Source: Triatoma infestans
Lineage: Eukaryota > Arthropoda > Insecta > Hemiptera > Reduviidae
Assembly: GCA_011037195.1 (NCBI GenBank)
Contig: JAAEAF010002648.1
Span: 1 to 64,000, forward strand
Length of the DNA: 64,000 nt
Direction of reading: 5' to 3'
The notes beneath the pieces were generated by a model. The model was given only the letters and a program-made list of their open reading frames with translations. It did no database searches and was not told the origin of the DNA. The translations under genes were made by a program, and so were the position numbers. Shown piece after piece: positions 5,470 through 61,003 of the stretch. Each line of letters opens with the position of its first letter. Positions within the stretch are counted from its first letter, which is position 1.

Positions 5470-5560
5470 TGGATTTTGAAGTTTGGTCAGAAAAACAAAC
5501 ATTTTTCAAATGTTACCGACGTCTCGGCAAATTTACTGCCTTTTTCAGGGTGTGTGCAAA
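5470..5560 (-). repeat. decayed hammerhead-like repeat (Penelope tail type)
   Basis: Read on the minus strand, the segment has CCTGAAAA, a hairpin of the GGCA..TGCC kind and GAGACGTCGG, followed by TTTGTTTTTCTGACC. The same order recurs at 33991-34060 and 60795-61003. Two core bases differ from a hammerhead (G8 and A13 changed), so this copy should be inactive. Confidence 0.45.
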
Positions 5561-7829
5561 GGTTGCAAAGCACATTACAATCAAAAAAATAAAGAATTCT
5601 ACAAAAAATAATAAAATAGTTTGCAAATCTTTACTAATCCAACTGTACCGTAGCTCATGCATATGCTACAGAAGTTAAACACAAAACTTCACAATCTTCT
5701 ATAAATAAAAAAAAAAGAACTTATTACAATTTTTATTTTGTGCTGTAATTATTAATAAATACAAAATCTCATTTATTAAAAAAAAAAAATTGTGGAATTG
5801 TAAATTAACCCAATTTTTTATCCAGTTTAATAGAAGCGCAACAAAATTGCAAACTATTGACTAATAATAAAAATAATCACACTAAAAAAAAGTTTGATAA
5901 TTTTTCTATTGAAACTGCAATAGTAAATTGTATTCAGTAGGTTTTTTCTGTTTTAACTAGCTATTATATTTTATTACAAAAATTTCATTTTTGTAATATT
6001 TACATAAAGAAGAGTAAACTGGCAAAGAGATTCCTAACTAATATAGTTTTATATAACACAGAATGTAAGTTTTTAGGGCCGGTAATATTTTTTGTGCTAT
6101 CCTCTTTTATTCAAAACAAAACAAAAATTATTTTAACAAAGTAAATAATAACAACGATGAAAAAGTAAATTTATACTCGCGATTCGGAGCAATGTCAATC
6201 TCTATAAATATTTTCTAAACAAATACAATGCCATAACAGTTGCACGCAATTCTTTGTTCCAATACCCCTTCTAGAGGTTCCCTCCTAGGCTAGTATTGAT
6301 CCTATACATAATAAGTCCTATATACATAAATTAGTACTTCTGTAGTTATATTATTTGTTTATACTTCAATTCTATTGGGAACTTTACCTTGTTTTATAGA
6401 GCTTCTTTTACTTAAAATTCAAGGTCAAAACATTCATTCTTGGAAGTATGGGCGCCAACTTGAACAAATATATTGGGAACCCAAATTATATACTCCTATG
6501 CAGCTGCTCTTTTTATTAAATTTTCTAATTCTGCCCAGCCGTCTCCCTCACTTATTTACTTACTTATGTCTGCGGGCACATTTATTACTTCTTTTTTTTA
6601 ATAATAATCTGTAATATAAGGAGTTTTCCTGCTGATGGGCTTTCCGAACGTTATGATGGCTCAGGCTTTTGATGCATGTCTTGTGTCTTTTCAGGTTTGA
6701 AAAGCATTTTTTATCTGAAAACATGAGCGAGGACTCGATAAGAGAAAACGTCAGAAGCATGCCTCCCACTTTCGTTTAATATAAAAATGAAATTATATTT
6801 TATTTGTCCTTAAAAACAATCTGGCGTAAATACCTTTCAATTGTATCCTTCGTTTTTTAAGATATATCTTAATATCTCTTGATCAGAACCAGTCTTTCCA
6901 AATCTATGTCATCATGCTAAACATTCTTGAACTCCTCTGACTCTTCTAAGTGAAGAATTCAGCGTTTACCATGAATTCTTATGACTTGTAATGAGGTTTC
7001 AGACTCTCAATGATAGTGCAAATGACTAATTCTAGGAATCAGAGTACAATAAACTAAATGCTACTCAATCATAAGACTAGGCACTTACAGTGTTATTGTT
7101 AAAAATGCGAGATTATTCTATAAAATCAAGATAATTTCAGCAAAGTAGAATTTATATCGTTTATTATTTGCATTTTCAGAAATTTTTAGTTTCGAAATTT
7201 TATTTTTATTCATTTAATTATTTTTTTTCTATCTTATAGGTTTACATAATCCTCTTACAAGGAGTTGGAATTTTGTATACTGCCACATTATTTCATTAAT
7301 AAACAAATATAATCTGAAACAAAAATAGATATATATAAAATAAATTTAATTAATTTTACTTAAATTTGCGGCGTTTATAACAAATAAAATTAATATTATT
7401 TTACTTTTCTACTATGTTAATCAATAATCATCAAATGAGTAAAGTCTAATTTATCTTTCATCGATGACTTAGTTATCTGTTTCAGTAACTGGTTATGGCA
7501 TTACAAACATACAAAAAATGATATTCATTATCTTGTTTGTTTCTATTACCTAATTTAAAAGTCTCACACAGAAAAATTATAATTTGTCTTAACCAGTGCA
7601 AAATTCTACTAACTTGCCTTTTGTCATTAGAGAGTGACATTTTTATTTTTTAAATTTTTTATTTCTTATATTCGAAATATTATCTGGATTACTACCTAAA
7701 TATGTTTTCTTAGGATAATATTGTATTTAAAAATTATACCAAGTGGCATTTATATGTCTTTTTTATTGTTGTACAATATTATTCAAGTTGTTAAAAACGT
7801 GATTTAGATCAAAACATGTCAAGCCTGCA

Positions 7830-8190
7830 AGCCGGTCACGGCTGCAGAGATGAGGTTTCTTCGTCGTATTGAAGCGAAGACTAGGCGAGATAGCTAAGAA
7901 ATGAGAGAATAAGAAGTAGCCTGGAATTTGAATCCCTAGTGAAAAGGATGGAGACGCGCCAGCTAAAGTTAGGAAAATGAGATATTTGATGGAGATCAGA
8001 AGTGAAGGAAAACGGCCCAGAGGAAGGCAAGGAATACCTTGAGTATTCTATCAAGGTTTAAACACGGCAATCAATGGCTTCCATGAAAAGAATAGCACAG
8101 GATAAAGTCAGTGGAATGCATGGTTAGAGGCATGATAACTGGCTCGACGCTGAAAGCCATTAGAGTCTTAGAAAAAGAAAAAGAACATGC
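7830..8190 (+). mobile_element. LINE 3' end fragment inserted in foldback arm
   Basis: With frameshifts, the plus strand reads like the C-terminal tail of a non-LTR retrotransposon polyprotein: an LRRIEAKTRRDS-like start, then ETRQLK, then a basic EGKRPRGR motif typical of the region after reverse transcriptase in jockey/RTE-like elements. It is short, interrupted by stops and ends in AAAAAGAAAAAG. It sits inside the left arm of the foldback and separates blocks that are continuous in the right arm. Confidence 0.5.
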
Positions 8191-8787
8191 CAAGTTTAAA
8201 CATTATATCAAAATACTGGAAGAGTAGTGAATTTTTGATATAGTATGAGAAACACGTGCAATTAAGAAGTTAAACTTTGCATATTGTTGTTATAGGTTGA
8301 TTTTGAAAAGTGTTACTGGAGGCCTAAAAAGGGATATTATGATTGATTAATTAATAATTAATAAAGGATGATTTCAGCAAACATTTTTTCAAAGAGTGGT
8401 CGGTCTCATGGATCCATCATCGGAACTTGATAATGTAAAGTTGAGATGACACTCAATTTGTGACGTTAAAAGAAGCAAGATCCGGAGGGTAGTATTTTAT
8501 TTGCAATACGTAGGATACAATACATAGAATTTTTTATTTATTTCGCTAATTACCGCTGCAGTTAAAGCGACACTGAATAAAAACAAAAAAAATAGGATTT
8601 TTTATTTATTTTTCACTCACATATGTAATATATTACAATATATTTTTTTTTTTTTGCTATTGCTCACTGCTGATACTGTTAGCTTGAGAATCTTAAGTGG
8701 AGAAGCCATCCAGCGATGACACTCCTGGCATAGTTAGGGCATTTAGTTGCGAAGGTTATGCAATACAAACGCCACTTCACAATATAT

Positions 8788-8821
<34 letters not shown>
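8788..8821. repeat. (TAA)n microsatellite
   Basis: About eleven AAT/TAA units in a row inside the loop of the large foldback. Shorter trinucleotide runs of the same kind occur at 1141-1160 and 39421-39442. Confidence 0.9.
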
Positions 8822-8824
<3 letters not shown>

Positions 8825-9460
8825 TATTTAGCCAACATTTATAACAGACAAATGTAAAAAAGAATCTACAGCATTGGTACTAACCCCTCCAAATCATGCT
8901 TCTAATAACTTCACAAATTCAGTGTCGTCTCAACTTTCGAATATGAACATGAACATTACTCATGTCTTGTAAGTCCACAGTTTGAAAGTTTTTTCTATTA
9001 TTTTAAAAAGTCATTTAAATTATTCCTTATTCTGAAAATCATCCATTATAAATTTTAGGACTCCAATATAACATTCAAAATTATCCTGTAACAAGAATAA
9101 GCAAATTTTAACTTCTTGATAGCACATGTTTCTCATTCTATACATTAAACTTTTTCAAAAATTGATCTCAAATCGCAGTATGAATAACTCTTGTTAATTA
9201 CTACATGCAAGTATGTAAGTGCTTTCACTTATTTGGCAATGCTTTAAATCTAAATCACGTTTTCAGCAACTTTTATAATACTGCACAATGATAAAAAGAT
9301 AAATAAATACCACTTAGTATTATTTTTAAAGACCTTATTGTCCTAAGATAATTTGTATCCAAATAATATTACGCGTGTAAAAAAAAAAGGATTTTATAGT
9401 TTTTATTTTTTCATAGAAGTGACATACAAATTTCGGAGAATAAAATTGGTTCATTCAATC

Positions 9461-13224: not shown

Positions 13225-13660
13225 ATTTCCGGGTTGAGACCGCGTCAGTGATTTGCTATAAACCAACGTTTCGTCCATCGAAGTGGCTCTGGAAAACCGT
13301 CAATTATTCTTTCATTTGGTTTTCTCTCCTCCTTTTCCTGACAAAGGGCAGCAATGTTCTGCTTTGACCGAGTCCATCGCCTCTTTTTAGACAATATTCC
13401 AATTTTCTCTTCATTTCTTATGATATCTACGTCCGTGTTGTTTACTTGGGCCAGGACTTTGATCTCCTCAAAATTTATGCGTACCCAGTTGTAGACGAAT
13501 GTTCATTTGCAGACTTTTCCGTTTCGTTATGCCTGAAACAATATATTATGCTCTTTACTGCACATTTGACAAATCTTTTGGTATGTCCCACCTCAGCTGA
13601 AAGGAATCACATTTTAATTCTGTCTATGCATTTGTTGTTCTTGGAAGACGTATAGAAATG
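13225..13660 (-). mobile_element. Penelope-like element fragment (GIY-YIG C-terminus and hammerhead-like tail)
   Basis: On the minus strand, broken frames read a typical Penelope C-terminal series: ETEKSANEHSSTTGYA, then FEEVKVLAQ, then IIRNEEKIG and a final short arm before the stop. In the family this follows the GIY-YIG endonuclease. Just downstream on the same strand (13300-13262) is GGACGAAACGTTGG, the right half of the hammerhead-like motif seen at other loci, followed by TATAGCAAATCACTGACGCGG. The reverse transcriptase part is absent, so this is a 5'-truncated dead copy. Confidence 0.65.
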
Positions 13661-16920: not shown

Positions 16921-17003
16921 GTAAACACCAAACATTCTTTTTTTCTAAAAAGTGACGCTGCGCATCAAATATAACAGATTTCAATTTGATTAGCTATTAT
17001 AAT

Positions 17004-17304: not shown

Positions 17305-17312
17305 TATAATTT

Positions 17313-17330
17313 TGGGGGCCGCTCCGGGAT
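17313..17330 (+). promoter_or_regulatory. primer binding site, tRNA-Pro-like
   Basis: TGGGGGCCGCTCCGGGAT starts eight bases after the LTR. It matches 15 of 18 positions of the well-known tRNA-Pro primer site (TGGGGGCTCGTCCGGGAT). The three mismatches are adjacent. A host tRNA-Pro variant or another tRNA could match better; this was not checked against host tRNAs. Confidence 0.7.
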
Positions 17331-17374
17331 CATAATCCAATCAAGTCTTATTGTGCAAAGTTTGTGTGTTAGCA

Positions 17375-21945: not shown

Positions 21946-22240
21946 TAATTAACATTTTTTACGAAACTAAAACGAATATAGCACACTAAACATTAATATA
22001 ATCATTTTAAATTTTCTTAAAAACAAACTACTATGTTCCATTTTAAATAAGAAAATTAGTTCCAGTATCCGCAATTTAAGAGCCTTAATCATAATTAAAG
22101 TATCCAGACAAAATTAAAAAGTTCAAATGTTGCAATTTTTATCACAAACTCATACGTTTCTTTTTTTTCTAATAATGTTGGGTACATGTGAAAATGGCTC
22201 TTAATTTGATGCTGGATCAAAATAATTTAAAATTCATACA

Positions 22241-22480
22241 TACACGATAGTATGGTTCCGCATCGCTGGAAAGCATCAGAGATATTTTCCGTGATAGCCT
22301 GCTTCTTTTTGGTACAACTGTAATTTTTTGAGTGTATCAACTGTATTTGCTCTGTGCAAGTCTATGTTATTACACTGGTTAACAAAAACATCCTGATGAT
22401 GGGCAAACGTCCGAAACAGGTCGATGACCACAAAAAGAATTAGGCTATCACGGAAAATATCTCTGATACACGATAGTATG
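22241..22480 (+). mobile_element. foldback element with hammerhead-like motif and 14-bp target duplication
   Basis: TACACGATAGTATG occurs at 22241-22254 and again at 22467-22480 and brackets a 212-bp element. Inside, the 26-bp arm 22275-22300 (ATCAGAGATATTTTCC...) is the exact reverse complement of 22442-22467. The right half holds a hammerhead-like core at 22389-22426. The left arm appears shortened and lacks the mirror-image core that the sister copy at 44437-44728 has. There is no coding capacity. A duplication of this length fits target-primed reverse transcription rather than a cut-and-paste transposase. Confidence 0.75.
22389..22426 (+). ncRNA. hammerhead-ribozyme-like motif
   Basis: In order: CATC (stem I, 22389-22392), CTGATGA (22393-22399), one extra T, hairpin GGGC-AAAC-GTCC (22401-22412), GAAAC (22413-22417), AGGTC (to 22422), then GATG (22423-22426), which pairs with CATC. 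These are the core boxes and two of three helices of a type I hammerhead; stem III would be only A-U and C-G. The expected cut is after C22422. The extra base between CTGATGA and stem II departs from the canonical core, and activity is unknown. Confidence 0.55.
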
Positions 22481-41700: not shown

Positions 41701-44700
41701 GGATCCCCGGTGATACCTACAAGAAATGTCAAGTTCTTGCAAGTTTAGTATTTGAGCTATGTTGTTCAATTAAATACATACTTTATATTGTTATAGGAAA
41801 TATTGCACTGCGACCTGAAAGATCTATTGGGATACCTGGAGCCTTCTCAGAGCACTGCCTAGGGGCGTGAGCTGTAGAGACCATAGAAAGAGAAAATCTA
41901 AGGGCAGCATCGCTGGACTCGAACCCGAAGCCTCCGCGTTGCTAGTCCAGCGCTACCATTGAGCTAATCCATACATACACAGACATACCGAGAGAGACAG
42001 AAATATTTCCTAAGGCCACTTTTTCGAACTCAGGAGACCTCAAAACGTATATTTCCGCTGAAAACTGGTTAGAAAATTTGGCACGACTGCAATACTTTAT
42101 CTTAGGGGAATAAGAGAAAGTGAAAAAGCTACAGGTGACAAAATTAATGACCCGAGCAGAAATAATCGGGTTACTCTATTTTGGGTACCACCATGATGGT
42201 CTAAAGTAACTGAGACGGCCGACAGTTTGGAAAGGTCTGCTGCAGTAATCATCTTTATGCAGTGCAATTAATTACGGCACTATGAGATCTTTGGCACTTA
42301 AGCTACCAGAGGAGATGATAGCGCAAAAAGAACTGGTTAGGAAAGCCCTCAACCTCATGAAGAGGAGGGGAGGTTTCTTATACTAGACTCATTGAGACAG
42401 GCACAATAAGCCTCTATGACTGCTGTGCTTTGATCATGACCCACCCCCTTTCTAATCTAATCTAATTTAATATTCTATGCACTATATTCTCTCATTTCAA
42501 AAAAAAATCAAAGCATTTATATCTAATCTTCAGTAATAAGGACCGAAACAAAACAATTCATTACATCCTGTACACTCACCAATCTGGTAAAGGAAGTCTG
42601 TCAGATGGAGGGGCGTTAGGATCCGCTTTTGTTTTTTTTCCAAATGGTGTATCTTTTTTAGGTTTTTTCTTTTTTGGTTTATCACCACCCGCGGTTTCTG
42701 CTTCTGCTTCTTCGTCATCATCCACAGTGGCTATCTGATAATCAGGTTCCTTAGGCATTCCATAAAATACTCGAGCTTTGTTATCTAAAAACAGTATGTA
42801 TATCATTTTATTTTTTCCGGCCTATGAAACAAAATCTTACTTAAAAGAAAAAATAAGAAACAACAGCTTTCATTTTTTTACACCTTCAATTGGTTTAAGC
42901 CGTTTTGGGTTCCGGTCCCATGTTTGTATAACAAAGTTTCTAAATTTGATAAATAATTTATTTTCTGGAATACAATCAAATTTTACATAAATTTATTGAT
43001 TGCTTTATCAGGTTCTATGTACCAAACACTAACAGTCTGTCACACTGTGGATAGATAATACGATATATAGATATGCCACACTGAATTATAGATTTTTTTT
43101 ACGATATCAGCCTTTGGAAGGTTTTATTTTTAATAGCCTTGAATATACAAGTACGGCAGCATTTGTTTATCTGATGTTTTTTAGCTAAGCAATGAAGCAG
43201 TTTCTGACAAGATATTTGATTAAAAAAAAAATACTAATTTACATAAATTTTTAGTATCAATTTTAGGGAAGGGTTAGCGTACTGGACTCCCACGCGGAAG
43301 ACTCGGGTTCGAGTCCGCTGCGCTGCCCTTAGATTTTTTTCTTCCTAGGAGCCTCTACAGCTCACTGTCCGGTGATGGACAGTGTTGTCTGTAACGAGAG
43401 AACACTTCCGGAGGCCGGCAGTGCACAGAGAAGGCTCTGGGCGCCAATGACCATAGATGTTGTCGCCTTAAATTGTAAAAAAAAAAAAATCAGTTTTTAA
43501 ATGACTGTGTGCAGCGCCCGCTCTAGCGGTGACCGCCCCGGGCAAAAAGACAAATTGTCGCCCCTTAAGAATATATATATATATTTTCAGCAAGTCTATG
43601 CATGTTTAAATAGAAGTCGAAGCAGCGCTCTAGCTCGCGTGCTAATGCTTTTCTGTTTAGAGAAGTATATGCGTGTTCAAACAAGTTCAAGCACCGTCCT
43701 TTACAAATTATGCGTTAATTTTTCAATAATAGTGTAAATATTTTCAGCTTTTAGACATAAACAATATAAATACGCTGCGCATTGCAAATTTTTAGCAAAC
43801 GAAAAAATCGACATGCGAAATTTGCTATTGAGTACATATCACATCAATATTTTTCTCACACTTACAGCCAAAATAGCGCCCCGGACAAATGTCCGGGTTT
43901 CCCGCCCCTAGAGCGGGCGCTGCTGTATGAGGTAAAAAATGGCTAGTACTTTTTCATTTTTCACCTTGCACATAAACTTTCACCAACTTTCTAGTTGGAC
44001 AAAATGTCGCAGACTTAAGCGATAGCATTTTCTTCTTGCAATTAAAGTAAAATGTTCTTGCTATTTAAAAAAAAAAGTTTTAATTGCTATTCCCATAAAT
44101 ATTATCCCATTCTTTCAAACTTTTTTTCTATTGGGCACTTGGGTGTTACTTTGAAACACTTTATTTTATTTAATGATAATGGAGCTGAATCTTGCTTGAA
44201 ATTTGCTGTGATATGAGTTGTTATAAAATGCCACAATTTACAATTTTTATCTATACTTTATAGCAATAAAGTTTAATAATACTATGGCAAACAAAACCAA
44301 TAATAATTTAAAATGTTCTCCTTTTCTTTTTATTAATTAATTTAGTTGAGTGATTTTGAGAAAAGTTATGTATTAAGGGTTAAAAGGTAACATTTAAAAG
44401 TGGCCATGCAATGAGATACATTAAAAAATTAGTAGTTGTTGTGGTGGTTGGTTCCGCAGAGCTGGAAAGCATCAGAGACATTTTCCGTGGTAGCCTGCTT
44501 CATTTTGTGGTCATCGACCTGTTTCGAGCGTTCGCCCATCTTCAGGATGCGTTTTTCAGACAGTGTGACAACACGGACTTGCTCAGAGCAAACTTAGTTT
44601 TTCACACTAACTCAGTGTGCAAGTCTGTGTTATCACACTGTCTGAAAAACGCATCCTGAAGATGGGCGAACGCCCGAAACCGGTCGATGACCACAAAATG

Positions 44701-47869: not shown

Positions 47870-50800
47870 ATGGCTGCTTGCAGGTTATTTGGTGTTCTCG
47901 GAAATATTTCTAGAAAAAATATAAAATTATTTTCAGTACCAGGTGAGTAACTTACTATAAATCGAATTTATAGTAATTGATTTGTTTTAATTTTTCTTGT
48001 TACCAAACTATTTAGCCCAGTGGCCCAATTGACCTTTGGCTCCCTGAAGATTTGGACAAACCCCAATTGAATTATTTTGAAATATAATTCATATAAAACT
48101 CTTAATTCTGCTATTATTAATAGAAAATTTTACGATTAATTAATAAAAATCATTAGATGAGATCGATAAGGCATTTTATTTTTGTACGTAATGATAGACT
48201 CAATTTTAGACTATTTTTAAATTTCCTTCTTTTCTCACCTTAACATTCACAAATGCTAGCTGGGCTCCATCATTCATCAAATATTAGTTGAATCTAAAAT
48301 GAAAGACCTGGCAGATTCATGTTTTAAATATCGGTTCGATAAAATATGAATGCTTGAGATATATCGTACATTAAATATTATATAAAAGAATTTTAACATT
48401 TTTTTTTATTTGGGGTGGCATCTCCCGGACTTTTTGATTTATGGGCGCACCCCATATCCTCAATGATCTTAGTAGAATTCCCTCTAAAGAAGAAAAAGTC
48501 CTCACCGATTAAACTTGAAAATTAGTGCATCATCAGTTTTGTAGTCTTTTTTGCAGCACGTAATCCCAGTCCATAGTTATAATTAAAACAAACATTATGA
48601 ATTTATCGTTTTTATTTGGATAGAAGATTACTTTGGTTATCAAATTGACCATTCACTACTGAGTTTACTAATTCGCTCAATAGTATGTTGGATGAAACCA
48701 TTTATTATTTTCAAAATAGGAAATATTAGATTTCCTTACTTGTAAACTGTTGATATTAATCGTTTTACACTACTCAAGACTATTCTGGGGAAAATGTATT
48801 TGATTAAAAGAACAAACATTCGAATGTAATTTAGGGCGTTAGTTAATACTGGTTTGGGAACTGCATTGAATTTAAATATATTTTTTGTTTGCTAAACAAT
48901 TAACTAAGCAATTTCTTCTTTTGCCACCTTTGTGCCGCGGCATGGAAAAGCATCCCTAATCTAACTCTTTCATCTGTCCTTGTTCCAGCTAATCTTCTCA
49001 TTCCTACAAGGATTCTCTTGCCTAACCAGTCCTTTCAGTATATTTTCCTGCGAGACTTACATTCTGCTTACCAGGAAGTCTGCCATCAGCAGGTGTTTGG
49101 CCTTGTTTCAATTGTTATAATGTGGTCATACCATTTCAGAGCTGTTCTCCCATATGTGCAAGGAGTGTCAGAGAAGATTACAAAACTCCTGGCAAAGCAC
49201 AATATGAGAACCATACATCGGCGTATAGTAAAATGTCCCAAATACTTCCAGGTTTCAAGGGCATATTTCCACTACAAAAATGTGCTATATGATACCTTGC
49301 AGTTGTGGAGAAAAATCCTGGGATACACTAAAAGGTTAGTCACGATGCGTCTTAAAGAACACATATAATGTGTCAAACACAATAAAACCGATAAGTCTGC
49401 ACATGCAGAACATTCGTCCATAACTGGGTATGGAATAAATTTTGGGAACACCAGAGTCCTTGCCTAAGTGAGCAGTTATTACGAACGTATCGTAAGAGAG
49501 GAAGTTGAAAAATAGGAAAACTGTTTGAATAGAGATGATAGATTCCATCTGAGCAGAACATGGCTCCCCCTGCTCAGAGAAAGGAGAGAAACAGAAAATG
49601 AAAAAATATTTAACGGATTTCCAGACAGTTGCAACTTTAGCAACGAGGCAGTGGGAGGGAAGACTAAGACTCGTCATCTAATACTTAAGTATACGCAAGG
49701 GAGAGAAAATTAAGCCCCGCATTCTACGGGAAGCTAACCCCCACTACTGCTCTGCATTACTCACTCGATATCTTGTCAGTGTTGTTTTAGGTTTAGACAC
49801 TACCCGAAGAAGCCTATTATACTATGGGCGAAATGTCGGTCTACAACAAAGCATTGACGCAGTTTCAATCCGAAGACCTAAGTGTTTTATACATACTATT
49901 CCAGCTGTCCAGTCCAAAATTAGCCAGTCTGATTATGTCTGGAGCTCTTCTCTAATATCGTATTTCTGATGCAATCTCCCAGATTTCCTAGGATACGCCT
50001 CAGAAAACGTATTTAGCTGTTAACTTACTGGAATGCTTATCCCTCACCTTCCAACCTAGAGTACAGGCAGAAACACCGTCTTGAATAGCACCAGCTTAGC
50101 GTCAAGGCTTAACTCATACTTTCCATCAACAGTGATGCTTATTTGGTAGAATACGCCGATCGCCTTCCTTAACCTACTCAAAATCTCCTGGTCAATTCTG
50201 CCATTCCGATTGATAAAAGCACTTAAAAATTTTCAAAGTCAGTGCCAGTCTGAAGAACTTATCCATTGCATATAATATGGAGTGGCAATTCTTCACGTTT
50301 TCCAGTCCACAATACCTTACTTTTGGAAGTTTTTGATATCCTTGCCTTTGCGACGTAGCTCTTCCCACCACTCTGTTACTGCCATCTAGAGTGCATTTGT
50401 TAATTGCCTATGATATCATTCATAGCTGGGCTTGTACCGCAACCAATTAAAGCTGTAGGAGTTCTAGGCTTATATATTTTCCAAAATTCGTCCATATAAG
50501 AAACGAACAATAGCGGGCTTAAGCAGGCTCCCTTAAAGTTCCATTTTACTTATTTGCTCTCAGTGCACTTCAATTATTGCCCATATTGAAAATTATGTAA
50601 CTGTAGTTCAAGATCATCAGTTTAAGGGATTGAGACTGCAAAATTTTTAAAAATTGAGAAAGAAACTACACAGTTGCACTAAAGAGTTTTTAAGCAAAAT
50701 ATTTCGAATAGTATTGAACTTGATTTGATTATTTTTTAGGCACCTCTCAATGGCAGCTTTATTCTACTACTACTACCCAGAAACATGCTCGAACGAAAAT

Positions 50801-53800
50801 TGTCAATGATGTTGCAGTTATAACGATAGACTCACCAGATGCAAAAGTAAATTTATGTGTATTCACTTCTTTAGATATTTGTAAAACTATATTTTTTCTT
50901 CTAAATATTCGAAAATTTCTTAGCATTAATTAACTATAAAAAATTTTAAACTTCTTGTGAAACAATAGGTGAACTCCTTGAGCCGGGAGGTAGCATATGA
51001 ATTGGAAGCAGCTCTTGGTAATGCGAATATGGACCCATCCGTGCGAGCGGCTGTGTTGATCTCCGGAAAGCCAGGATGCTTTATTGCCGGTGCAGATATT
51101 AATATGCTTCAGGCCTGTAAATCCGAAAAAGAAGTCACAGATGTATCTTTAATGGCGCAAAAAATTCTGGCAGGAGTGGAAGCAATGAAGAAACCAGTTG
51201 TAGCAGCTATAATGGGACCATGTCTTGGTGGAGGGCTTGAGGTAGATTATATTAAAATTTTATTGATACAATGCAATATCTTGGAAATGGTAAAAATCTT
51301 AAAGGTAGAGAATGTTTAAAGTCTAAGGTTGTTTTGGCATTGCTCTCTCTGCTATATTATCAGAAAGATCTATATAACCTTATATATATATATATATCAT
51401 CCTTTTATGTAGCGCATTCAATAACAGTAGCTACAACTGTGGATTCTTATTCTTCGAACGAAAAGAAAACACTAGATAAGGATGACACGTGGTTAAATAA
51501 GAGATGTAATTGTTATCATGGAAACCTCATTGGATAGTGGAATAAACTGCACAACAATTCTCATAGTTCCCGTACGTATGTAGGGCGAAGACTTATTTTC
51601 CCCCTAACTGTATTTTCGCGTTTTCATTCACTTTATTTCGTTTTGTCCGCAAGTCATTGTACCTGTCTTTTCGCATTTTTGTTTTGATATGCGTAACATT
51701 TCACAATTACATAATTCCTATAAAACATGAAACATTTATTATATAAATTTTCGTAAAAATATTTCAAAACTGTGGATGTCATTAGATCAATGCGAGCAGA
51801 TAGCTCTTTTTTGATTGTATTTTCTAGCCATTGTTTACTAATTTAGCTCTGGAGCTAACCACAACATGGGCTAACAAAATGGGATTTTTACTCTCCATTT
51901 GTAACTCTGGAGAGTGACTCTTGATGTAGTTAAAGGTGTTGGTTTTTCTACTGCGATATACCGAACTGCAGCCAAACAAGTCTTTCACATTGTCATTTAA
52001 AATTACGTTCTCTTTATCCTGGCAAAACGCCTGTATCAAACGCCTTCTGTTAATAACATTGCATAGTATGTGTTTTAAGTTGCAATGTTCAATAAGTAGA
52101 TCTACAGTCATTTCTGCCATCTCCGCCTTGAAAAGCGGAGTCCTTGAGAAGAAGTTGAAAAATAGGAAAACTGTTTGAATAGAGATGATAGATTCCATCT
52201 GAGCAGAACATGGCTCCCCCTGCTCCACATATGTGTGCAAATATATACAACCAACAAGTGTGAGTCTACAGAAACATTTCGTTGAAGTGAACTCTTTACA
52301 CGAACTTGGTGAATTTGCTCTGACGATGGATGAATATCCGAAACCGGTCAGGAACAAAACCAATATGCATGCTAGACGGATAAAATACCGGAAGATAAAT
52401 TTATATTTGGATTCACTTTATGTCATCTACAGATTAATTTATTTATTTAGACATTCTACTTTATTTGGACATTAGGACATCGTTATATTTTAACTCTTTA
52501 ATGACTAGGTATTTCAGCTTTATTGTTATGTCAGCTGTATTGATTAGTACGCTGTGTTTTGGAGCACCTCAGTTTAATTGAGCAGTCCAACTTGATTTTG
52601 ATTAACTGTTCTCTCTCTTCTAGTTTTATAATATATATAAAAAAAAAAATGAAATTGGGGTGTATGTATTTAAAAGAGCATCTTATACATACTTTGTCTA
52701 ATGAAGATAATTAATTTTATAGTTTAAAATTCAATAAATTACAGGTAGCTCTTGCTTGCCATTATCGAATTGCAGTGAAAGATAAAAAAACAACACTTGG
52801 CCTGCCAGAAGTAATGTTAGGACTATTACCAGGTGGAGGAGGGACTCAGAGACTTCCCCGCCTAACTTCCATACCTACAGCTCTTGATCTCAGTCTTACT
52901 GGTAAAATGGTTCGAGCAGATAAAGCTAAAAAATTAGGAATAGTTGATTTACTTGTCGATCCTCTTGGTCCTGGTTTGGTACCACCTGAAAAACGGTTAG
53001 TATTTCTTCTTCCTTTAAAACGAAAGTTTTTATTGCCTCTTTGTTTTATTCGTGGATATTTATTTAATAAAGAATATGAATCGGCAATTTGGATTTAAAA
53101 TTGTATGTTTTAGAAAATAACAATTTCTGAATATGGTTACTGAATTTATAAAAATGAGAACTTCATGGATATTCATTTTTTAACAGAACAATTGAATATC
53201 TTGAAGAGGTGGCAGTATTAACAGCTAATCAGTTAGCCAGAGGAGAGTTAAAGGTAGACAGAAATAGAAAAGGGCTGACGGATAAAATCATGAATTTCGC
53301 TCTTAAATATGATTGGGTAAAGGATCAGATTTTCAATAGAGCTAAAGGACAGGTATTGAAGTTGACTGGAGGCTTGTATCCTGCCCCACTTAAGGTAAAT
53401 ATAACCTATCTTTTTCTAAGTTATTTTAAAATTTACATTAACACTATTTTCGTGACATTAAACGACAACAGTCAGGATGTGGTTTTAAGAAAGCAACTGC
53501 ACATTGAAGATAAAGGAAAAAAAAGGATATTCTAAATTTATAAAATGGATGAGGAAATTTACATTTTTTTCATCAAATCTGAGCATTTCTCCTTTTTTTG
53601 CTTTCTAGGAAATATAAAAATTATTCAATCTTTCGGAATCATTTGTACATTAAAAAAAATTCAATGAACTTTTAATTTGAGACAGTTAATATTAGGAACT
53701 TTTATAATTCATGAACGAAAAAATGTAGCCATTAAGGTCGAAGTATATTGCTATTCATTTTAAGGACTTTCTGAAAGGTATATGTATATCTTTTGATAAA

Positions 53801-56800
53801 AAAGATTTAAAACACTAATAAAATTAATTTGTAAAGATTCTAGATGTAATTAGAACAGGCTTAGACGAAGGAGAGAAGCGAGGTTATGAAGCAGAAGCTA
53901 AGAGTTTTGGTGAATTAGCAATGACACCTCAAAGCAAGGGTCTAGTCGGTCTTTTTAAAGGACAAACCGAGTGCAAGAAAAATCGTTTCGGCAAACCCGA
54001 ACGTGAGGTCAAGTGAGTTTATTCATAAAGTTTGAGTTGTTTTGTTGAATGACAATGACGCTATCATTTAAAGCCTTATGTCTTTAAAGTTTTATATTGA
54101 AATTTTATCATTCATGCACCGCGCAATGCTTCGGGCTTTACATTGACAGAACCTATAACTTGGAATCCAAACAAAAGAAAAAATTAAGAATACCACGATG
54201 CTAATTCAAAAATCAAAATTAACAAAGGACTGTATGGCTTGTATTATGCTTTAAAGATATAATTAAGTATTCCAACTTTGAAGAGCATTCTGTTATGAAT
54301 TTCTCAAAACTTCACACTCAAAATTCAAAAATAATACTAACTATTTACTCCTTAGAAATATTCTATTACCATAGAGATTCCTCAGTACAGTATCATTAGT
54401 CTAAGAATTAATTCCGGCTCATAAAAGAAATTTCATTCTAGTCCGCTAATTTACGTTCCTGAACAAAACTTCCCTCATCTCCTGAACTGGAACTGACACG
54501 CGATTTACTTGGCAGTGGAAGGTTATAAAGTGATTCATTAGTAGAACACCAATTATTAGTAGATCTTCATTTGACCGGGCAGCGTTGTCTGGACATTTTT
54601 GGAAGTCGCATTCAGGATCGTCTTTATGAGGCTCTAGATCATTGAAGCCAGATCAAAATAAAGCTGATTCCACATTTGGTCTCCAATATTTGCCCAACCC
54701 AACCATTATATGCTAAATGGCTGTGTTGGGGCATTCACATTTGTGCAAAATAACAAATTTAACATTGATAGCCAATTGAGTTTGCGAGTTAAAGCCGCGT
54801 TAGTGGTTTGCTAGAAACCGACGTTTCACCCATATTGCAATGAGCCTCTTCAAGGTTCAGTGCGCCATTAACTTTCAAAATGTATCAACCCAAGAGGCTC
54901 ATTGCAATGTGGGCGTAACGTCGAAACTACTGACGCGCTCTCAACCCGGAAACTTAAGCGGTTTTCATGAAAATGGCCGCAGAAACCTAAAAGATCAAAT
55001 TTAACATTAACATCTAAATTCTCGAATACTGCTTCAATGACCATACCTACATTACCGAACTTACTATGCTAATGGAAGATGATCCAGATTTGCTAAAACT
55101 TTGTCACTCAAACTGAATAACTTCGTTTACTTATGTCGGTGTTAATTTTTTATACAACTACGGATATACTCGAAATATTAGAGAACCAATTGCTCCTGAA
55201 TATTTTGTCAACTGTAATACCAGGCTTAGTTAGAACGAAATGCTAATATACAAGTAGCTGTTGATTTTGCTGTATTCAGTGTAATTAAAAATGAAATAAG
55301 TTTTAAAATTTATGTGAATTTGTTGGATCTTTTCAGCTTCCTTAGGCACATTGTATAATTCTATAAACAGCACGCCCAATCTTAAGTGTGAGTGTGGTTC
55401 AAAATATTCAACTTAGGCAATAATAGTTATTAATTGGTTCAAAAAAGAATTAATTTGCGTAAAAACGAGGTTTGAATTATTCAAAATAAGGTAATAGATA
55501 GTTAAAAAAAACTTTACTGAATAATCAGAATGTTGAAAATAAGGGATTAAACGGATCGCTCTTATCATTAACAAATTGTATCTTTATTTTTGTCTCGCCT
55601 CTCTAAAATGGTAATATTAATTCATGCATACAGCTCTATTAAATACTTTCGAAATCTCATTTCAGTTATCATTCCTACAGTTAGGCTAATGAGACAGACA
55701 GCATTTCTCATTTTTTCGCGTTTAAATCTAGTTTTACTGCTGATCAGACAATGGTAAATGTACAAATTAGTCAATACCATGGACAAATGTAATTTTATTT
55801 AGATCATTTAATTTTTTTTTGTTTTATTTTTGTTTAGGACACTAGCAGTGCTTGGGGCCGGATTAATGGGAGCAGGTATTGTACAAGTTACTTTGGATAA
55901 AGGTCTCAAAGTCATTTTGAAAGATGCAACTCAAGCAGGACTTAACAGAGGTTTGGGGCAGATAACGTCAGGTTTCGATTCCTCCGTTAAGAAGAAGAAA
56001 ATTACCGCGTAAGTTTTTATATTATTAACTTCTATTGTATATGTTAATACGAATTTTGTACAAGTAACCTGATTTGATCAATAATTTTTAAATTAATCTT
56101 CCTTTTATAATTTATTTATACAGGTTTGAAAGAGACAGATTTTTAGCAAATCTGGATCTTACATTGGATTATAATAAGTTCGCTAATGTAGATATGGTCA
56201 TTGAAGCAGTATTCGAGGATTTAGGTATCAAACACAAAGTAATAGCCGAAACAGAAGCTGTTGTTCCACCACATTGCATAGTTGCTACGAATACTTCTGC
56301 CCTTGAGATTACTAAAATAGCTGCGAAAAGCAAACGCCCAGAGAAGGTAGTCAATAAACAAATTAATTTGAGATTGTAAAATTGAATTGTATTTGAAAGT
56401 GAGCTTACAATATATATATACACCTTGGACAAATGTAATTAAGATTGAATTATATATATAATATATATACTACTAAGTGTTCTTTAAATCTGTCTTTGAG
56501 GCATCTTCTCTCTCTAGCCAACGTACGGGCAGTTGCATTCTGGACAAGAGAGTTTGCATATACTGCTTTTGTCTTAGAGGTCGATTGTTTGAGAATGTTT
56601 GCATATTTTGATTACAAGTTAATTTTTTGCTCTGGATGTTGTTATCAAACCTAGTTTTCTGAAAAATTTTGTCAGCTTCAAAGGCTCGTATGTGAAAGTG
56701 GCAAACATGTTGGATGATGTGGGGTTTCGTCTTGTTGTGGTTTTGTATGTCCCTTCCTAATAATTTATTGACGATGCTGGGCATAGTATCCTTTTTTGTG

Positions 56801-59707
56801 GCTATGGTATTGTGTTCATGTTTGTAGTCGGTCGATGTGAGTGGTATAGTTTTTAGCCTATTAGTAAGGTGACTGAGGACTGCTGGTTTGTGATGAGTAG
56901 GATGTTGGTAACTGAATGGTATTAGTGTGTGACTGCTCGTATGTAGGCCAGACTGGAAGATGCCTCAAACACAGATTTAAAGAACACCTGCACTCATACT
57001 AATACAACAAAATAAGACTCCAGTTACGGTAACCACTTTATAAAGAACAGCCACGAACCACAAAGTAGCGTAAAAACAGTAGTACAAGTCACCAAAGATC
57101 ATTCTAGAAGAAGTAAAAATGTACAAACACAACACTATCCACAAAAACATAATGATTGACCAAATAAACTTAAACTCAGCCACTCTCTAAATACCATCTC
57201 TATCACAAATTTACCCATGCAGTTTCTTATACTAACCTTGTATGCATTTCAGTAGTTATTTATTGTTTACACGCTTTTAATTCGTACATTCCTTTTCTTC
57301 AATTTTTTATATCATTATATATTATTTATATAATGTAGTCTAGAAATTTTCAGTCGCTGTCCATATGAAAAATACTTGACAAAAATACCTTACCACGTCT
57401 TCTTCAAAGCAGCTATTTATTATACACCATCATCTAATTTGTAATCATAATTTTATAATCTTCCCATTTTTGTTATTAAACATTCACACATACTAATATA
57501 ACCTAATAAACCTTCTTGCATACAATCAACAAGTTTGTGTGTGATAGAAGCATAAAGTTGAAGTCAACTCTCTAAACGAACTTGATAGCTTTACTCTGAT
57601 GATGGATGAGAACTACGAAAATAAGCATGCTATGACGAATAAAATCCAAGCCATATACATAAATACATTCGTATATTTTTAGTTACATATTTTGTTTCAA
57701 TAAAGCTATATGGTTTTTAGGTAATCGGCATGCACTATTTTTCTCCGGTAGATAAAATGCAATTATTGGAGGTAATTACCACTGACAAAACATCAAAAGA
57801 TACAGCAGCTTCGGCAGTTGCAGTAGGTCTCAAACAGGGAAAAGTTGTAATTACAGTGAAAGACGGTCCTGGATTTTATACTACTAGAATCTTAGCAACA
57901 ATGGCTTCCGAAGCATTGAGATTATTACAGGTATTTTTTTTTTATGCATGTATGCCAAGGGTTTTGATGTGAAATGCTCTCTCTTACTTTATGACTTTTT
58001 ATTAGCTAAAGATTTCCGCTATTCTAAAATTAAATTCTTTAAAATCGAATACAGGAAGGAGTAGATCCAAAGCAATTGGACAAGTTATCAAAAAAATTTG
58101 GGTTTCCAGTAGGCGCAGCAACACTTGTAGATGAAGTTGGTATTGATGTTGCATCGCATATCAGTGATCATTTGTTTTCAGTGTTTGGTGCCAGGTTTAG
58201 CGGTGGTAACTCGGCAGTTTTGAAGGAGATGACTGATTCAGGTTTTCTTGGTAAGTTTTTTTATGCATTAAGTTTTTAAAAGAATTGAGTCCGATTGACA
58301 TGTTGGACAGTTTTTGAGATTTCATCCATCGTAGACCTGTTCTTTTTCTTTTTTGTGACGGTTGGTAATCATCTTAAGTGCTCTTTTTGTTGGGTGATTG
58401 TGAGTGTAATAATATAATAACTCAAACTTAATATTCCTTTAACGTAATCAACAACAAGAATGTCGATATGAAATTTTTGGTCAAATCCCATTAATGTGAA
58501 ATGCAATGGGTATTTCAGTTTTGCTGTTCTCTCGAAAATATAGTTACAAAGTTCTTTAAAACTTGATATAATAATTATACATATCAGTCTATGTTAATCG
58601 GAAATGGATTTTTCAGACCGTTTTTGCAATTTTATCGAAAATGTCTCCGAAAATTTGCCTAGGCAATTTACCTATAGGTATACCCTTTTAACTACAAACA
58701 AGTATACCCTATAGGTATACCCTTTTAACTACAAACAAGTATACCCTATAGGTATACCCTTTTAACTACAAACAAGTATACCCTATAGGTATACCCTTTT
58801 AAGTACAAACTTACCTATGTATATGTACTTCAAATTAATTAAATACACTCCCACACATATCAGGGAAAGAGAGGAATATTTACTAAATATAGAATATCTA
58901 CAAAATAATTTCTTTTATTTATATTTATAATTATTTTTAATTACAATGTATTTATAACAAAATCGCATTCTTTGATTTTAGGAAGAAAATCCGGCAAGGG
59001 AATTTATGTTTATACAAAAGGCTCTAAAGACAGAGATGTAAATGATGGAGCATTAAGTATATTTAATAAATTTCATCTTGATCCAAAAGGATTACAGGAA
59101 GATGAAGATATACAATTGAGAATGGTATCAAGATTTGTGAACGAAGCTATTGTCTGTTTGCAAGAAGATATTCTTAATGGACCAGTGAGTAAATTTATAA
59201 ACTTTATTTAATTTTTAACCCAACTTCTATCTAGATCTGGAATTTTGTTTTAATCTAATTAGCAATAAAAAATTGAAAATAAGTGAAAACCCGTTTATTT
59301 TGAGTCATAATATTCTAAGGACATTCAAGTAAAACAAACTATAGTTCTTCTTCAACTTTGTAAGTCATCGTATAGAGTACGCTTCCCGAATTCATACGGG
59401 TATATTTTATACCCGTCAATTTTATAATATACTTTATATATTCTTTCTTTTACAACTTAATATCACACTAGATTGTTTCACACGTATTTTATTATTATTG
59501 TCACAGGTAGAAGGAGATATTGGCGCAGTTTTTGGACTTGGATTCCCTCCATTTACTGGCGGCCCATTTAGATGGGTAGATACATACGGTGCTGATAAAC
59601 TTGTTAATAAAATGAAAGCATTTGAAAGTGCATATGGTGCACCATTTATGCCATGTCAACTTCTGCAGGATATGGCCAAATCCGGCAAAAAATTCCATTC
59701 CTCGTAA
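47870..59707 (+). CDS. HADHA: HADHA, mitochondrial trifunctional enzyme subunit alpha
   Basis: The protein carries long-chain enoyl-CoA hydratase and 3-hydroxyacyl-CoA dehydrogenase activities of mitochondrial beta-oxidation, working with the thiolase subunit HADHB at the inner membrane. Twelve exons join in frame: 47870-47942, 50740-50846, 50969-51241, 52745-52995, 53187-53394, 53837-54012, 55838-56008, 56124-56346, 57721-57930, 58055-58250, 58982-59184, 59507-59707. They give 763 residues, the same length as the human enzyme. The N-terminus is basic and Ser-rich without acids, a mitochondrial presequence. In the hydratase, the GADINML loop, Glu151 (GGGLE) and Glu173 (LPEVMLG) match the catalytic glutamates. 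The dehydrogenase has the NAD motif GAGLMGAG (369-376), His499 in [11 protein letters not shown], and [14 protein letters not shown] near the end. All introns are GT-AG; several contain Penelope remnants. No disruption was seen. Confidence 0.97.
49120..49860 (+). mobile_element. Penelope-like element 3' part with hammerhead-like tail, HADHA intron 1
   Basis: A plus-strand frame reads [20 protein letters not shown] then MRTIHR, the conserved link before the GIY-YIG endonuclease of Penelope-like elements, then TMRLKEHI and, after frameshifts, [10 protein letters not shown] and [17 protein letters not shown], the usual C-terminus. Some 230 bases downstream comes CCGAAGA (49804-49810), hairpin CCTAT...ATGGG, GAAATGTCGG (49830-49839) and a GCATTGACGCAG block. 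Reverse transcriptase is missing and frames are broken, so it is dead. The segment 49501-49575 is repeated identically in HADHA intron 3. Confidence 0.8.
49880..50540 (-). mobile_element. decayed LINE fragment in HADHA intron 1
   Basis: Minus-strand frames with stops read [17 protein letters not shown], then [13 protein letters not shown] near 50090 and [20 protein letters not shown] near 49950. This order resembles the RT-downstream part of LINE polyproteins (a helix ending RRI.G...D.IRN..I). The family is not assigned. Confidence 0.45.
52142..52380 (+). mobile_element. Penelope-like tail with hammerhead-like motif, HADHA intron 3
   Basis: Positions 52151-52225 are identical over 75 bases to 49501-49575 and encode the same Penelope C-terminal peptide ([16 protein letters not shown]). 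Some 40 bases later GTTGAAGTGAACTCTTTACACGAA leads into the hammerhead-like motif at 52318. The sequence upstream (51824-52140) is open on the minus strand for 179 codons but matches nothing I know and looks like a different repeat. Confidence 0.7.
52318..52355 (+). ncRNA. hammerhead-ribozyme-like motif
   Basis: CTGACGA (52320-52326), T, hairpin GGAT-GAAT-ATCC (52328-52339), GAAAC (52340-52344), CGGTC (to 52349), then AGGAAC. Core boxes are intact and stem II pairs perfectly with different bases from the copies at 44652 and 25761, so the hairpin is kept while its sequence changes. Stem I is weak. It sits directly downstream of the Penelope coding remnant. Confidence 0.55.
54776..54975. mobile_element. 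foldback with inverted hammerhead-like halves, HADHA intron 6
   Basis: The left half (54784-54858: GCGTTAGTGGTTTGCTAG, then GACGTTTCACCCATATTGC, then AATGAGCCTCTTC) is the inverted copy of the right half (54892-54955: AAGAGGCTCATTGCAATG, GGGCGTAACGTCG, ACTGACGCG). On the minus strand the left half reads TTGAAGAGG, hairpin CTCAT...ATGGG, TGAAACGTCGG. This is the same type as the tails at 13262 and 49804. The core is degenerate. Confidence 0.6.
56464..56790 (-). mobile_element. Penelope-like element fragment, HADHA intron 8
   Basis: Minus-strand frames read [20 protein letters not shown] and then, shifted, the [10 protein letters not shown] motif of GIY-YIG domains, then a segment ending DLKNT. 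Coding direction is opposite to HADHA. Broken. Confidence 0.6.
56945..57640 (+). mobile_element. Penelope-like element fragment with tail motif, HADHA intron 8
   Basis: It begins with the GIY-YIG region in broken frames (GRLEDAS, then [13 protein letters not shown], then [17 protein letters not shown]). At the end is GTTGAAGTCAACTCTCTAAACG and CTGATGA (57596-57602), GGATGAG, TACGAAAATAAGC, a decayed hammerhead-like motif. About 30 bases at its start (near 56957) are the inverted copy of 56472-56507, so two Penelope fragments face each other here. Confidence 0.65.
58672..58810. repeat. 37-bp tandem repeat in HADHA intron 10
   Basis: Units start at 58672, 58709, 58746 and 58783 with CTATAGGTATACCC and continue TTTTAACTACAAACAAG. 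The first three are identical and the last is partial with a C-to-G change. The identity suggests a recent expansion. Confidence 0.95.
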
Positions 59708-60062
59708 CATAGACACATTTAATTAATGTGCGAATGTTTTAGTTGTTTCTTGAAAAGACTGTTTTTATTTTTTATTTTTACAGCTTCTAACTTGTAGTTT
59801 TGGTTTTTGAACAATTTAAATCATTTTTGCAGAAATTTATTGTACAAATGTTATTTTTCTATAGAATATTGAATTGACTCTAAATTTCTGCAAGTGTTTG
59901 ATCTGTAAAACTGCCAAAAATACCAAAAATTGGAGTTGTGTAGCTATACAGTCCCACGAAATGGGTAATGTTAGCAGCAACAATTGAATTTATATATAAA
60001 AAATAATATATATATATATAGAGCGAGAGAGAGAGAGTATTTATATTTTATTACTTTATATA

Positions 60063-60068
60063 AATAAA
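60063..60068 (+). terminator. candidate polyadenylation signal of HADHA
   Basis: AATAAA, 356 bases after the stop, following a (TA)n and (GA)n stretch (60004-60037). It is the clearest hexamer in the 3' flank, but no transcript supports it. Confidence 0.4.
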
Positions 60069-60239
60069 GGTTGTTACATATATAAGTATGATTAATATGC
60101 ATATCTAATAGTTGAGTTTACGTTTACATATGTTCCACATAGTCCTTAGTGAATCAACCTTCTCTTATTGTAATTTACATATTGTTATTACAGATTTCGT
60201 TCAAATTTTTTAAGTTTTATATAATTTAACTGGCTTCAA

Positions 60240-60500
60240 TATTCAGTTAGGAGAATCTAAACTAAAAATTGCACAAGCGGGAAGCGTGATCTTCCAACTC
60301 CCCTCTAAAATCTATAACTCCGAAAATTACTTCGAACAAAAGTGATAGGTCGATAGATGTAAAATTAATGTACCAAGTTTTAAAAAACTCGTTGGTATCA
60401 TTATCAAGAAAATCGCAGAAAATCGAAAAAAAAAGTTCAGTGAAGTAGCACTTCCGGTTTATCGATTTTCTTCTAACAGGAATTTTTGCAACACATTTAT
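60240..60500 (-). repeat. dispersed ~1-kb repeat family, inverted partial copy
   Basis: The minus strand has CGGAAGTGCTACTTCACTG, TTTCTGCGATTTTCTTGAT and ACCTATCACTTTTGTTCG, matching the plus-strand copies at 28360 and 61690. Confidence 0.5.
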
Positions 60501-60794
60501 TTTTATTAATATTATATAAGTGATTAATAATAATAATAATTTGTTTTATTACAACTTAAGTACATGTACATTTTTACAAATTGTTTCAAACAGACTAACT
60601 CATGGTCTTTAAACCGTTAGAGGTGAGTTGATAATAAACAGAAACATAACATCCTCCATAAAGTGGAATAAAATATAAAAACTGAAATAAAGTAAAAAAT
60701 AAACAAATAAAAACATAGTATACAGAACACATTATATATAAGAATAGGTATTGTTTTGATGTTCTTTGTAACCTCTGTATTTGTTATTGTAATA

Positions 60795-61003
60795 AAAATA
60801 GATATTGAGGTCGGTCAGAAAAACAAATTCAAATTTTCACCGACGTTCGGCAAGTTTTATTGCTTGAAATTTTTAAAAACTATGGTTCAACTAGCGACAA
60901 TTACAAGAGTAAATGTTTTCCTGAAGAAGGCAATAAATTTGCCAAAACGTTGCTGAAAATTTGAAAATCTGTTTTTCTGACCAACCTCGATATCCATTTT
61001 TAT
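60795..61003. mobile_element. foldback with hammerhead-like halves downstream of HADHA
   Basis: The left half (60803-60865: GATATTGAGGTCGGTCAG, AATTTTCACCGACGTTCGGC) is the inverted copy of the right half (60919-60998: CCTGAAGAAGGCAATAAATT, TGCCAAAACGTTGCTG, CTGACCAACCTCGATATCC). The right half keeps CTGAAGA and the GGCAA/TTGCC hairpin but has GAAAC changed to AAAAC. Same type as 5516 and 33991. Confidence 0.6.

Follow-up and report, generated by a model that had tools for sequence, protein, structure and literature searches.

Hammerhead-like motifs in a Triatoma infestans contig as probable ends of Penelope-like elements

The first 64,000 nucleotides of contig JAAEAF010002648.1 from Triatoma infestans (assembly GCA_011037195.1), hereafter called the window, contain short motifs resembling hammerhead ribozymes, which a preliminary description placed at 14 positions on both strands. 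This raises the question of which elements carry these motifs, and of whether they represent a new ribozyme variant, as that description thought possible. The motifs are very probably the pseudo-long terminal repeat (pLTR) ends of several families of Penelope-like elements (PLEs) with the known minimal type I hammerhead. The copies in the window are short inserts or remnants without an intact open reading frame (ORF), and some of them are head-to-head pLTR pairs. Read as PLE ends, about a dozen puzzling repeats are accounted for at once. Since PLEs are already known to carry small hammerheads, this is a rich but expected example and not a new kind of ribozyme.

Motifs and their link to Penelope-like elements

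The motifs were scanned for using a strict descriptor consisting of CTGANGA, a 4-bp stem II with a loop of 3-10 nt, and then GAAACNGGTC, GAAACGTC, or GAAATGTC. It was written after the motif had been seen and the copies are related, so the resulting counts show non-randomness only and are no significance test of ribozyme function: five loci in the window for the strict form and seven with at most one core mismatch, both against none in 60 dinucleotide shuffles, and 11 with at most two core mismatches against a shuffle mean of 0.4 and a maximum of 3. The comparison rules out a chance origin of the motifs. Ten of the 11 matches are positions on the earlier list, and the 11th, at 14685 (+), does not rise above noise with its two mismatches and two extra bases. 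Seven of the 14 listed positions have the exact heptamer CTGANGA (22393+, 25761-, 44545-, 44656+, 52320+, 57596+, and 60921+), five match the full strict descriptor, and ten the descriptor with up to two core mismatches; the remaining four (57596, 34432, 33993, and 13262) are decayed copies. All 14 coordinates did turn out to be copies of repeats, and they fall into four families, for which F1, F2, F3, and F5 are working labels (there is no F4); some decayed copies were assigned by eye alone. The claim that the same full layout recurs at all 14 places holds for the ten within two core mismatches and not for the four decayed ones. At five loci the core of the type I hammerhead (CUGANGA ... GAAA and a UH cleavage triplet) is exact, the triplet being GTC, in agreement with the layout first proposed. 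Pattern scans of viral contigs and of prokaryotic genome contigs gave no matches.

A PLE protein is directly tied to F5 and to an element type represented by L049, which is found elsewhere in the genome (contig C1030, positions 8001-12000), while we infer the membership of F1, F2, and F3 from their anatomy and the shared motif. A whole-genome profile search for the Pfam GIY-YIG domain gave 38 matches over the cut-off, one of which lies inside the 809-aa open frame of L049 (ORF 276-2702). Here GIY-YIG scores 28.1 bits (cut-off 22.6), and the reverse transcriptase (RT) domain RVT_1 has an E value (E) of 8.5e-7 and 29.3 bits, just under the cut-off of 29.6. On either side of the ORF lies a direct repeat (1-251 and 3016-3265, 96.8% identical to each other); the left one starts where the fetched stretch does and may extend further. 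Both repeats hold the motif CTGAGGA-A-GATTA.., about 150 nt upstream of the ORF in the case of the 5' copy; here all 5 bp of stem II are intact and GAAACGTT comes next, and the copy in the 3' repeat has one stem II pair broken.

F5 is linked to the PLEs via its endonuclease (EN) sequence. At 49102..49635 (+) the window contains a broken PLE C-terminal region with a GIY-YIG-type EN remnant and three stops, which resembles residues 664-795 of the 809-aa ORF (E 4e-4), and an F5 core, CCGAAGA-A-GCCT..GGGC-GAAATGTC, is found 169 nt 3' of it (49804..49837, +; a one-mismatch match). A second and more decayed EN remnant at 13316..13591 (-; tblastn E 2.5e-12) is likewise followed by an F5 motif, badly decayed, at about 13262-13283 (-). 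Relatives of the EN remnant gave 150 genome matches, the window copy included, among 1,998 candidates of which 150 were scored. In five of 20 loci (L029, which is the window's own, L032, L037, L040, and L046) the EN sequence is followed on its own strand, at a distance of 135-268 nt, by an F5-type motif with at most two mismatches; L030, L045, and L048 join them when the core alone is scanned for, regardless of pairing. All eight aligned EN pieces match the C-terminal part of the 809-aa ORF (blastp E 1.7e-14 to 0.001), and in L030 an RT-end fragment is found upstream of EN, the sole RT part seen for F5. Protein searches with the EN remnant returned no match among 11 and 7 candidates, and searches of the PDB nothing relevant. 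The 809-aa ORF also matched a PLE remnant in L001/L024. An additional PLE-type family is represented by the motif at L024:4363 (+), CTGAGGA-A-GGAC..GTCC-GAAACGTC, close to which the other strand holds a broken PLE reading frame that matches the 809-aa ORF in tblastn.

The anatomy of F2 is also that of a PLE. The exact F2 core CTGANGATGGGCGAACGCCCGAAAC occurs 15,614 times (7,861 + 7,753) in the 941-Mb assembly of 13,959 contigs, and a reversed control 0 times. In the window, a 292-bp F2 element at 44437..44728 is a head-to-head pLTR pair where the left arm has a tail extension and the right arm ends short; the arms (44472-44585 and 44616-44729, 114 nt each) are 96% complementary. It is flanked by a target-site duplication, AAAATTAGTAGT, at 44425..44436 and 44729..44740, a 12-bp exact direct repeat compared with a control maximum of 10. 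The F2 element at 22255..22465 has a partly deleted inverted arm (inverted repeat 22275-22311/22431-22467) and a tail remnant at its left end, and is flanked by the 15-bp exact direct repeat ATACACGATAGTATG (22240..22254 and 22466-22480). Ten head-to-head F2 pairs were compared, nine of them fetched from the genome and one from the window. In six of these the direct repeats at the ends are 12-14 bp, above the maximum of 10 bp (mean 7.6) in 90 mismatched flank comparisons. A tail is present on exactly one arm in eight of the eight pairs with placed ends, although in L009 and L013 the ends were placed by repeats within the control range. The tail stretches end within or just past the AC-rich CCAACCACCACAACA. 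Measured from the A of the ATG, four tail ends lie at 98-107 nt and four short ends at 65-67 nt (once per pair). A9-U-G makes up the F2 ATG, 24 nt downstream of which the cut is predicted. Among 100 listed of the 15,614 F2 places (exact cores, judged by eye), at least nine pairs of neighbours lie within 400 bp of each other, all of them minus-then-plus. Of the ten pairs, the longest F2 form is that at L015:3751-5020, a palindrome measuring about 1.2 kb that carries F2 motifs at either end. Its arms are 80.9% identical, the whole is about 81% identical to its own reverse complement, and it has no open frame of 180 aa or more.

The preliminary description had mentioned Penelope-like elements, and this link is borne out by the EN remnants beside F5, by the L049 ORF, with both RT and GIY-YIG, between motif-bearing repeats, and by the anatomy of F2. 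The PLE traits found are the direct repeats of L049 and the head-to-head pLTRs, one-arm tail, short target-site duplications, and pLTRs extending over the ORF start of F2.

Stem pairing and the extra base

Stretches of 46 nt from F2 and F3 align without gaps. In six copies 92.4% of the cells are paired, compared with 19.7-41.7% when the partners are slid by 1-3 columns, and both sides have changed in three of the four stem I pairs and three of the four stem II pairs, as expected from the covariation first claimed. When all eight copies are used, including the two most decayed, 84.1% of the cells are paired. Pairing was further examined in 41 F2/F3 copies from the window and the fetched stretches, picked by their core (at most two mismatches) regardless of pairing. 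Counting Watson-Crick and G-U pairs, the four pairs of stem II hold in 40, 39, 41, and 39 of these and the first four of stem I in 37, 38, 31, and 36, while the fifth stem I pair fails, holding in six. Of the seven rows in an F1 set from the same scan, L013 and L045+ are not F1 and were left out. The symmetry of terminal inverted repeats (TIRs), which might have been the sole source of the pairing, was ruled out: the stems sit inside a single arm, and they are also present in the copies at 52320 (+) and 25761 (-), for which no inverted partner was found. The inverted repeat of F2 does on the other hand cause a sub-threshold Rfam match to the microRNA mir-5985 at 44559-44641 (-; 34.8 bits, gathering 100), which was rejected. 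Stem III is a loopless palindrome, ACCGGT or, in F1 and F5, ACGT. The suggestion that it is self-complementary and suited to dimers stands as far as the palindrome is concerned, but two of the six copies carry ACAGGT, which breaks the central pair.

All copies had been said to share one extra base past CTGANGA, and this oddity is real. Exactly one extra base follows A9 in all ten listed positions that match the descriptor in the window, and in 35 of 35 matches with at most one mismatch in 20 fetched genome stretches, which were chosen around F2; the L024 motif of the additional family is among the 35. The scan of 41 copies used a fixed-length pattern presuming one extra base, so it speaks to pairing and not to how many extra bases there are. 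The usual hammerhead layout has no nucleotide between A9 and stem II, and the motifs in the window are therefore a variant. F2 and F3 have U here, the F1 copies have A, and most F5 copies have A or G. Exact F2 cores number 15,614 in the genome with T at the extra place and 258 with any of the other three bases, a preference that may merely reflect a young family. When the extra base is allowed to vary, the F5 core is present at exactly 100 places, with A in 64, G in 31, T in 4, and C in 1 (counted by eye).

The idea that this variant may be new was not upheld. An extra A between A9 and G10.1 is described for the plus hammerhead of chrysanthemum chlorotic mottle viroid (CChMVd; PMC3705267), minimal type I hammerheads have been published for PLE pLTRs (PMC7761336, PMC7229834), and L049, a PLE of the same genome with an uninterrupted RT/EN frame, has the extra base at the same place. 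According to the account of the CChMVd (+) hammerhead, U at the extra place increases the trans-cleaving rate 3-4-fold while C or G is harmful (PMC3705267). The G found at this place in 31 of 100 F5 cores disagrees with a simple activity rule of the viroid type.

The U that F2 and F3 have at this place is the second base of an AUG beginning with A9. The frame from this AUG is open through motif and tail in both F2 copies read, and F3 copies such as those at 52320 (+) and 38894 (-) likewise read on from it. Between F2 and F3 (52320+) the residues GER are replaced by DEY while the stem II pairing persists. Coding, and not catalysis, would explain the extra base in these two families; it does not account for F1, F5, and L049, where the additional base is A or G and the AUG is mostly missing. 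It is possible, though on balance doubtful, that core and start codon of F2 and F3 form one object, where the base is fixed by coding, the ribozyme switches between translated mRNA and trimmed template, and the ORF-less copies are a PLE derivative resembling short interspersed nuclear elements (SINEs). If so, the predicted cut would remove the first eight codons from the message, families without an overlapping AUG would be the ones bearing A or G at the extra place, and the SINE-like ORF-less copies, many of them head-to-head pLTR pairs, would carry the exact core more than 15,000 times. No statement naming an overlap of core and start codon as the source of the extra base was met in the papers cited, but no search was aimed at this.

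Family members and neighbouring features

The F1 members are found at 5548-, 33993+, and 60921+. The first (5518..5548, -) reads CTGAAAA-A-GGCAG/TTGCC-GAGACGTC and is a two-mismatch match, the second (33993..34023, +) is a decayed copy with CCGAAGA, two core mismatches, a broken second pair of stem II, and GAAACTTC, and the third (60921..60951, +), from the scan with at most two mismatches, reads CTGAAGA-A-GGCAA/TTGCC-AAAACGTT. The inverted repeat of this last copy revealed a partial inverted partner at 60792-60863 (-), which was absent from the earlier list.

F2 (22393+, 44545-, and 44656+) gave strict descriptor matches in all three members. The core at 44656..44685 (+) is CTGAAGA-T-GGGC/GCCC-GAAACCGGTC; the inverted arm of the same element (44516..44545, -) has the stem II GGGC/GCTC, and the core at 22393..22422 (+) has GGGC/GTCC. 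The F3 members are 25761-, 34463-, 38894-, 52320+, and 57596+. Strict matches were found at 52320..52349 (+; stem II GGAT/ATCC) and 25732..25761 (-; AGAT/ATCT), and the descriptor scan also gave the core at 38865..38894 (-), with two core mismatches. The two decayed F3 copies are those at 57596..57625 (+), where the heptamer is intact and stem II and the 3' core are lost, and at 34434..34463 (-), where the 5' core is lost and reads AATATCA. Upstream of the F3 copy at 52320 there is a 26-codon EN C-terminal piece (52148..52225, +). A stretch of 80 bp, 98.75% identical between 52146-52225 and 49496-49575, is shared with the F5-linked locus, while the surroundings of the two loci differ; template switching or gene conversion may have placed this shared stretch before an F5 motif at one locus and an F3 motif at the other.

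The F5 members are 13262-, 49804+, and 54853-. The core at 54820..54853 (-), from the scan with at most two mismatches, reads TTGAAGA-G-GCTC..GGGT-GAAACGTC, and it has a decayed inverted partner near 54890 (+) that was absent from the earlier list. Adjoining this head-to-head pair near 54.8 kb, an exon-like stretch at 55014-55120, which we take from reading the sequence to be HADHA, recurs inverted and 83% identical at 56116-56224. A match to enoyl-CoA hydratase (52715-53094) lies near the duplicated stretch, which a PLE insertion may have picked up from the host genome, in the way described for rotifers.

Among other features of the window is a complete-looking long terminal repeat (LTR) retrotransposon at 17002-21947 with 306-bp terminal repeats (98.4% identical) and a single ORF of 1383 aa, which has gag, protease, RT, RNase H, and integrase matches. 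RT fragments at 35082-36275 (-), with RVT_1 E about 1e-4 and below the curated cut-off, probably derive from a broken non-LTR retrotransposon. A PIF1-like helicase fragment at 63337-63852 (-; E 5e-28) comes perhaps from a Helitron, and a tandem array at 58671-58810 has 3.8 copies of a 37-bp unit with 99% matches.

Alternatives, mechanism, and known systems

Several observations weigh against the motifs being hammerheads of PLE ends. The direct repeats at the ends of L009 (10 bp) and L013 (8 bp) are within the control range, and those of L012 and L015 (9 bp) do not exceed the controls either. No full-length F1, F2, or F3 element turned up, no dedicated search for one having been made, and the F2 stretches L006-L028 showed no EN-like sequence. 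The EN piece next to the F3 motif at 52320 was left uncounted, as it may stem from a local patch instead of being the end of F3's own ORF. F5 motifs are opposite in strand to the neighbouring EN at L041+, L047-, and L045+. Pfam scans of single EN copies and of the eight aligned copies gave no GIY-YIG, and the link between EN and PLEs is drawn because of the genome-wide profile search and the blastp matches to the 809-aa ORF. The covariation is mostly one F2-versus-F3 change per pair and comprises few independent events. Five whole longer copies fold no better than shuffles (z -0.10 to -1.31), and their free folding favours other structures. The two motifs of one window element are inverted, and a single transcript would form a long hairpin rather than a dimeric hammerhead. 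The Rfam hammerhead models gave zero matches in the window at E up to 10, and none at gathering. The same models also miss the motif in the 5' repeat of L049 and thus seem not to cover this variant, so that ribozyme surveys of genomes relying on them may undercount PLE motifs.

Type I motifs in short non-coding repeats of an overlapping size range are also known from the non-LTR retrozymes (PMC7229834), whose tandem units of 170-400 bp resemble SINEs, contain canonical type I hammerheads, and spread via circular RNAs. It is highly unlikely that the motifs stem from such elements. The window has no such head-to-tail tandem array at periods up to 500 and close neighbours are arranged head to head (nine of nine within 400 bp among the 100 listed F2 places), and tandem retrozymes were rejected on these two grounds; further, stem III is loopless and minimal, and the tail and short-end structure together with the EN linkage point to PLEs. 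The near-perfect inverted repeat at 44437-44728 and the palindrome of about 1.2 kb in L015, with its 80.9% identical arms, would fit palindromic DNA transposons (miniature inverted-repeat transposable elements or foldback elements) whose TIRs just happen to hold the motif, without any ribozyme. This explanation must be regarded as extremely improbable, given that the length of the convincing target duplications ranges between 12 and 15 bp, that the ends are asymmetric with a tail on one arm only, that copies exist without a found inverted partner, and that the motif recurs in the pLTRs of an element with RT and GIY-YIG.

The open N-terminus that F2 and F3 read through the motif could mean that the motif is conserved merely as protein code (an N-terminal start, e.g., MDENPKPV) and not as an RNA structure. 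There is very little probability of this, and coding-only conservation was discarded: the change from GER to DEY between F2 and F3 (52320+) leaves the stem II pairing intact, the L049 motif lies about 150 nt upstream of its ORF, and F1 and F5 cores are usually without such an ATG, T being found at the extra place in four of 100 exact F5 cores. A further alternative, which differs from the PLE reading on present activity only, is that the hammerhead once was functional in PLEs and is catalytically dead here. Decay of several window copies, the lower activity expected from a weak stem III, and a published PLE ribozyme that showed no cleavage without protein (PMC11167929) all favour such a relic. 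It nevertheless appears rather unlikely, as core and pairing are kept in the abundant F2, with its 15,614 exact cores, and in the 5' repeat of L049, and as U at the extra place speeded up the viroid hammerhead (PMC3705267).

If the motifs are PLE hammerheads, a transcript running through tandem or partly tandem pLTRs would contain two or more of them. Each combines a stem II hairpin with a proximal stem I, which is 4 bp long in F2, and a stem III that lacks a loop and would pair weakly within one copy. Two copies might pair via the palindrome, which would yield a pair of active cores. The element RNA would always be trimmed at one point, by cleavage after GUC, and reverse transcription might then start within the first ~65-107 nt of the reading frame and give two alternative 3' ends, one short and one with the tail. 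Self-priming or template switching could finally lead to head-to-head palindromes with a short target duplication. The dimer action, the predicted cleavage, and the role in trimming template RNA are what we infer. In a review the role of PLE hammerheads is still called unknown (PMC7761336), and a genome with more than 15,000 exact cores and linked RT/GIY-YIG elements should be a good test ground for it.

Founding work on the hammerheads of PLE pLTRs is reportedly that of Cervera and De la Pena in 2014 and of Lunse et al. in 2017, as the papers citing them have it. According to these citing papers, the published minimal PLE hammerheads resemble those found here in their type I layout, very short stem III, and location in pLTRs, and also in their dimer-type architecture and thousands of dispersed copies. 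They are described as self-cleaving possibly as dimers (PMC7761336) and as present by the thousand in animal genomes (PMC7229834). The metazoan non-LTR retrozymes are alike in having type I hammerheads in short animal repeats, but they are reported to consist of tandem units with canonical loops and stem III and to form circular RNAs (PMC7229834), whereas the elements described here are known from DNA alone and the window has neither a tandem array nor a stem III loop. CChMVd (+) shares the one unpaired base between A9 and stem II, and differs in its context and in having A where F2 and F3 have U (PMC3705267).

The anatomy of F2 is closely paralleled by the Penelope elements of Adineta vaga, as portrayed in PMC3846280. 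These are inserts with an adjacent inverted pLTR and target duplications of 8-10 bp, an optional tail of 31 bp is found on one inverted pLTR, and the pLTRs include the first ORF codons. Self-priming is named there as the source of head-to-head palindromes, and host DNA is captured between pLTRs. Head-to-head inverted pLTRs, short target duplications, a one-arm tail, and pLTRs that reach into the first codons are common to both systems, but the copy number is called low in A. vaga (PMC3846280), while one exact core is found 15,614 times here. The Poseidon PLE PAc of Anolis carolinensis, in the account given of it (PMC11167929), has an ORF that opens at stem II and leaves C3 and G8 ahead of the start codon. 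The cut falls 26 bp inside this ORF, and reverse transcription starts 111-118 bp inside it, at an AC-rich stem loop; two RT start sites account for the tail of PAc, and cleavage was seen only with protein. In both PAc and F2 the core straddles the ORF start, and the cut is placed about 24-26 nt into the ORF and the RT start in an AC-rich stretch about 100-118 nt into it, with two 3' ends (PMC11167929). F2 differs from PAc in being seen here only as ORF-less copies, many of them head-to-head pLTR pairs.

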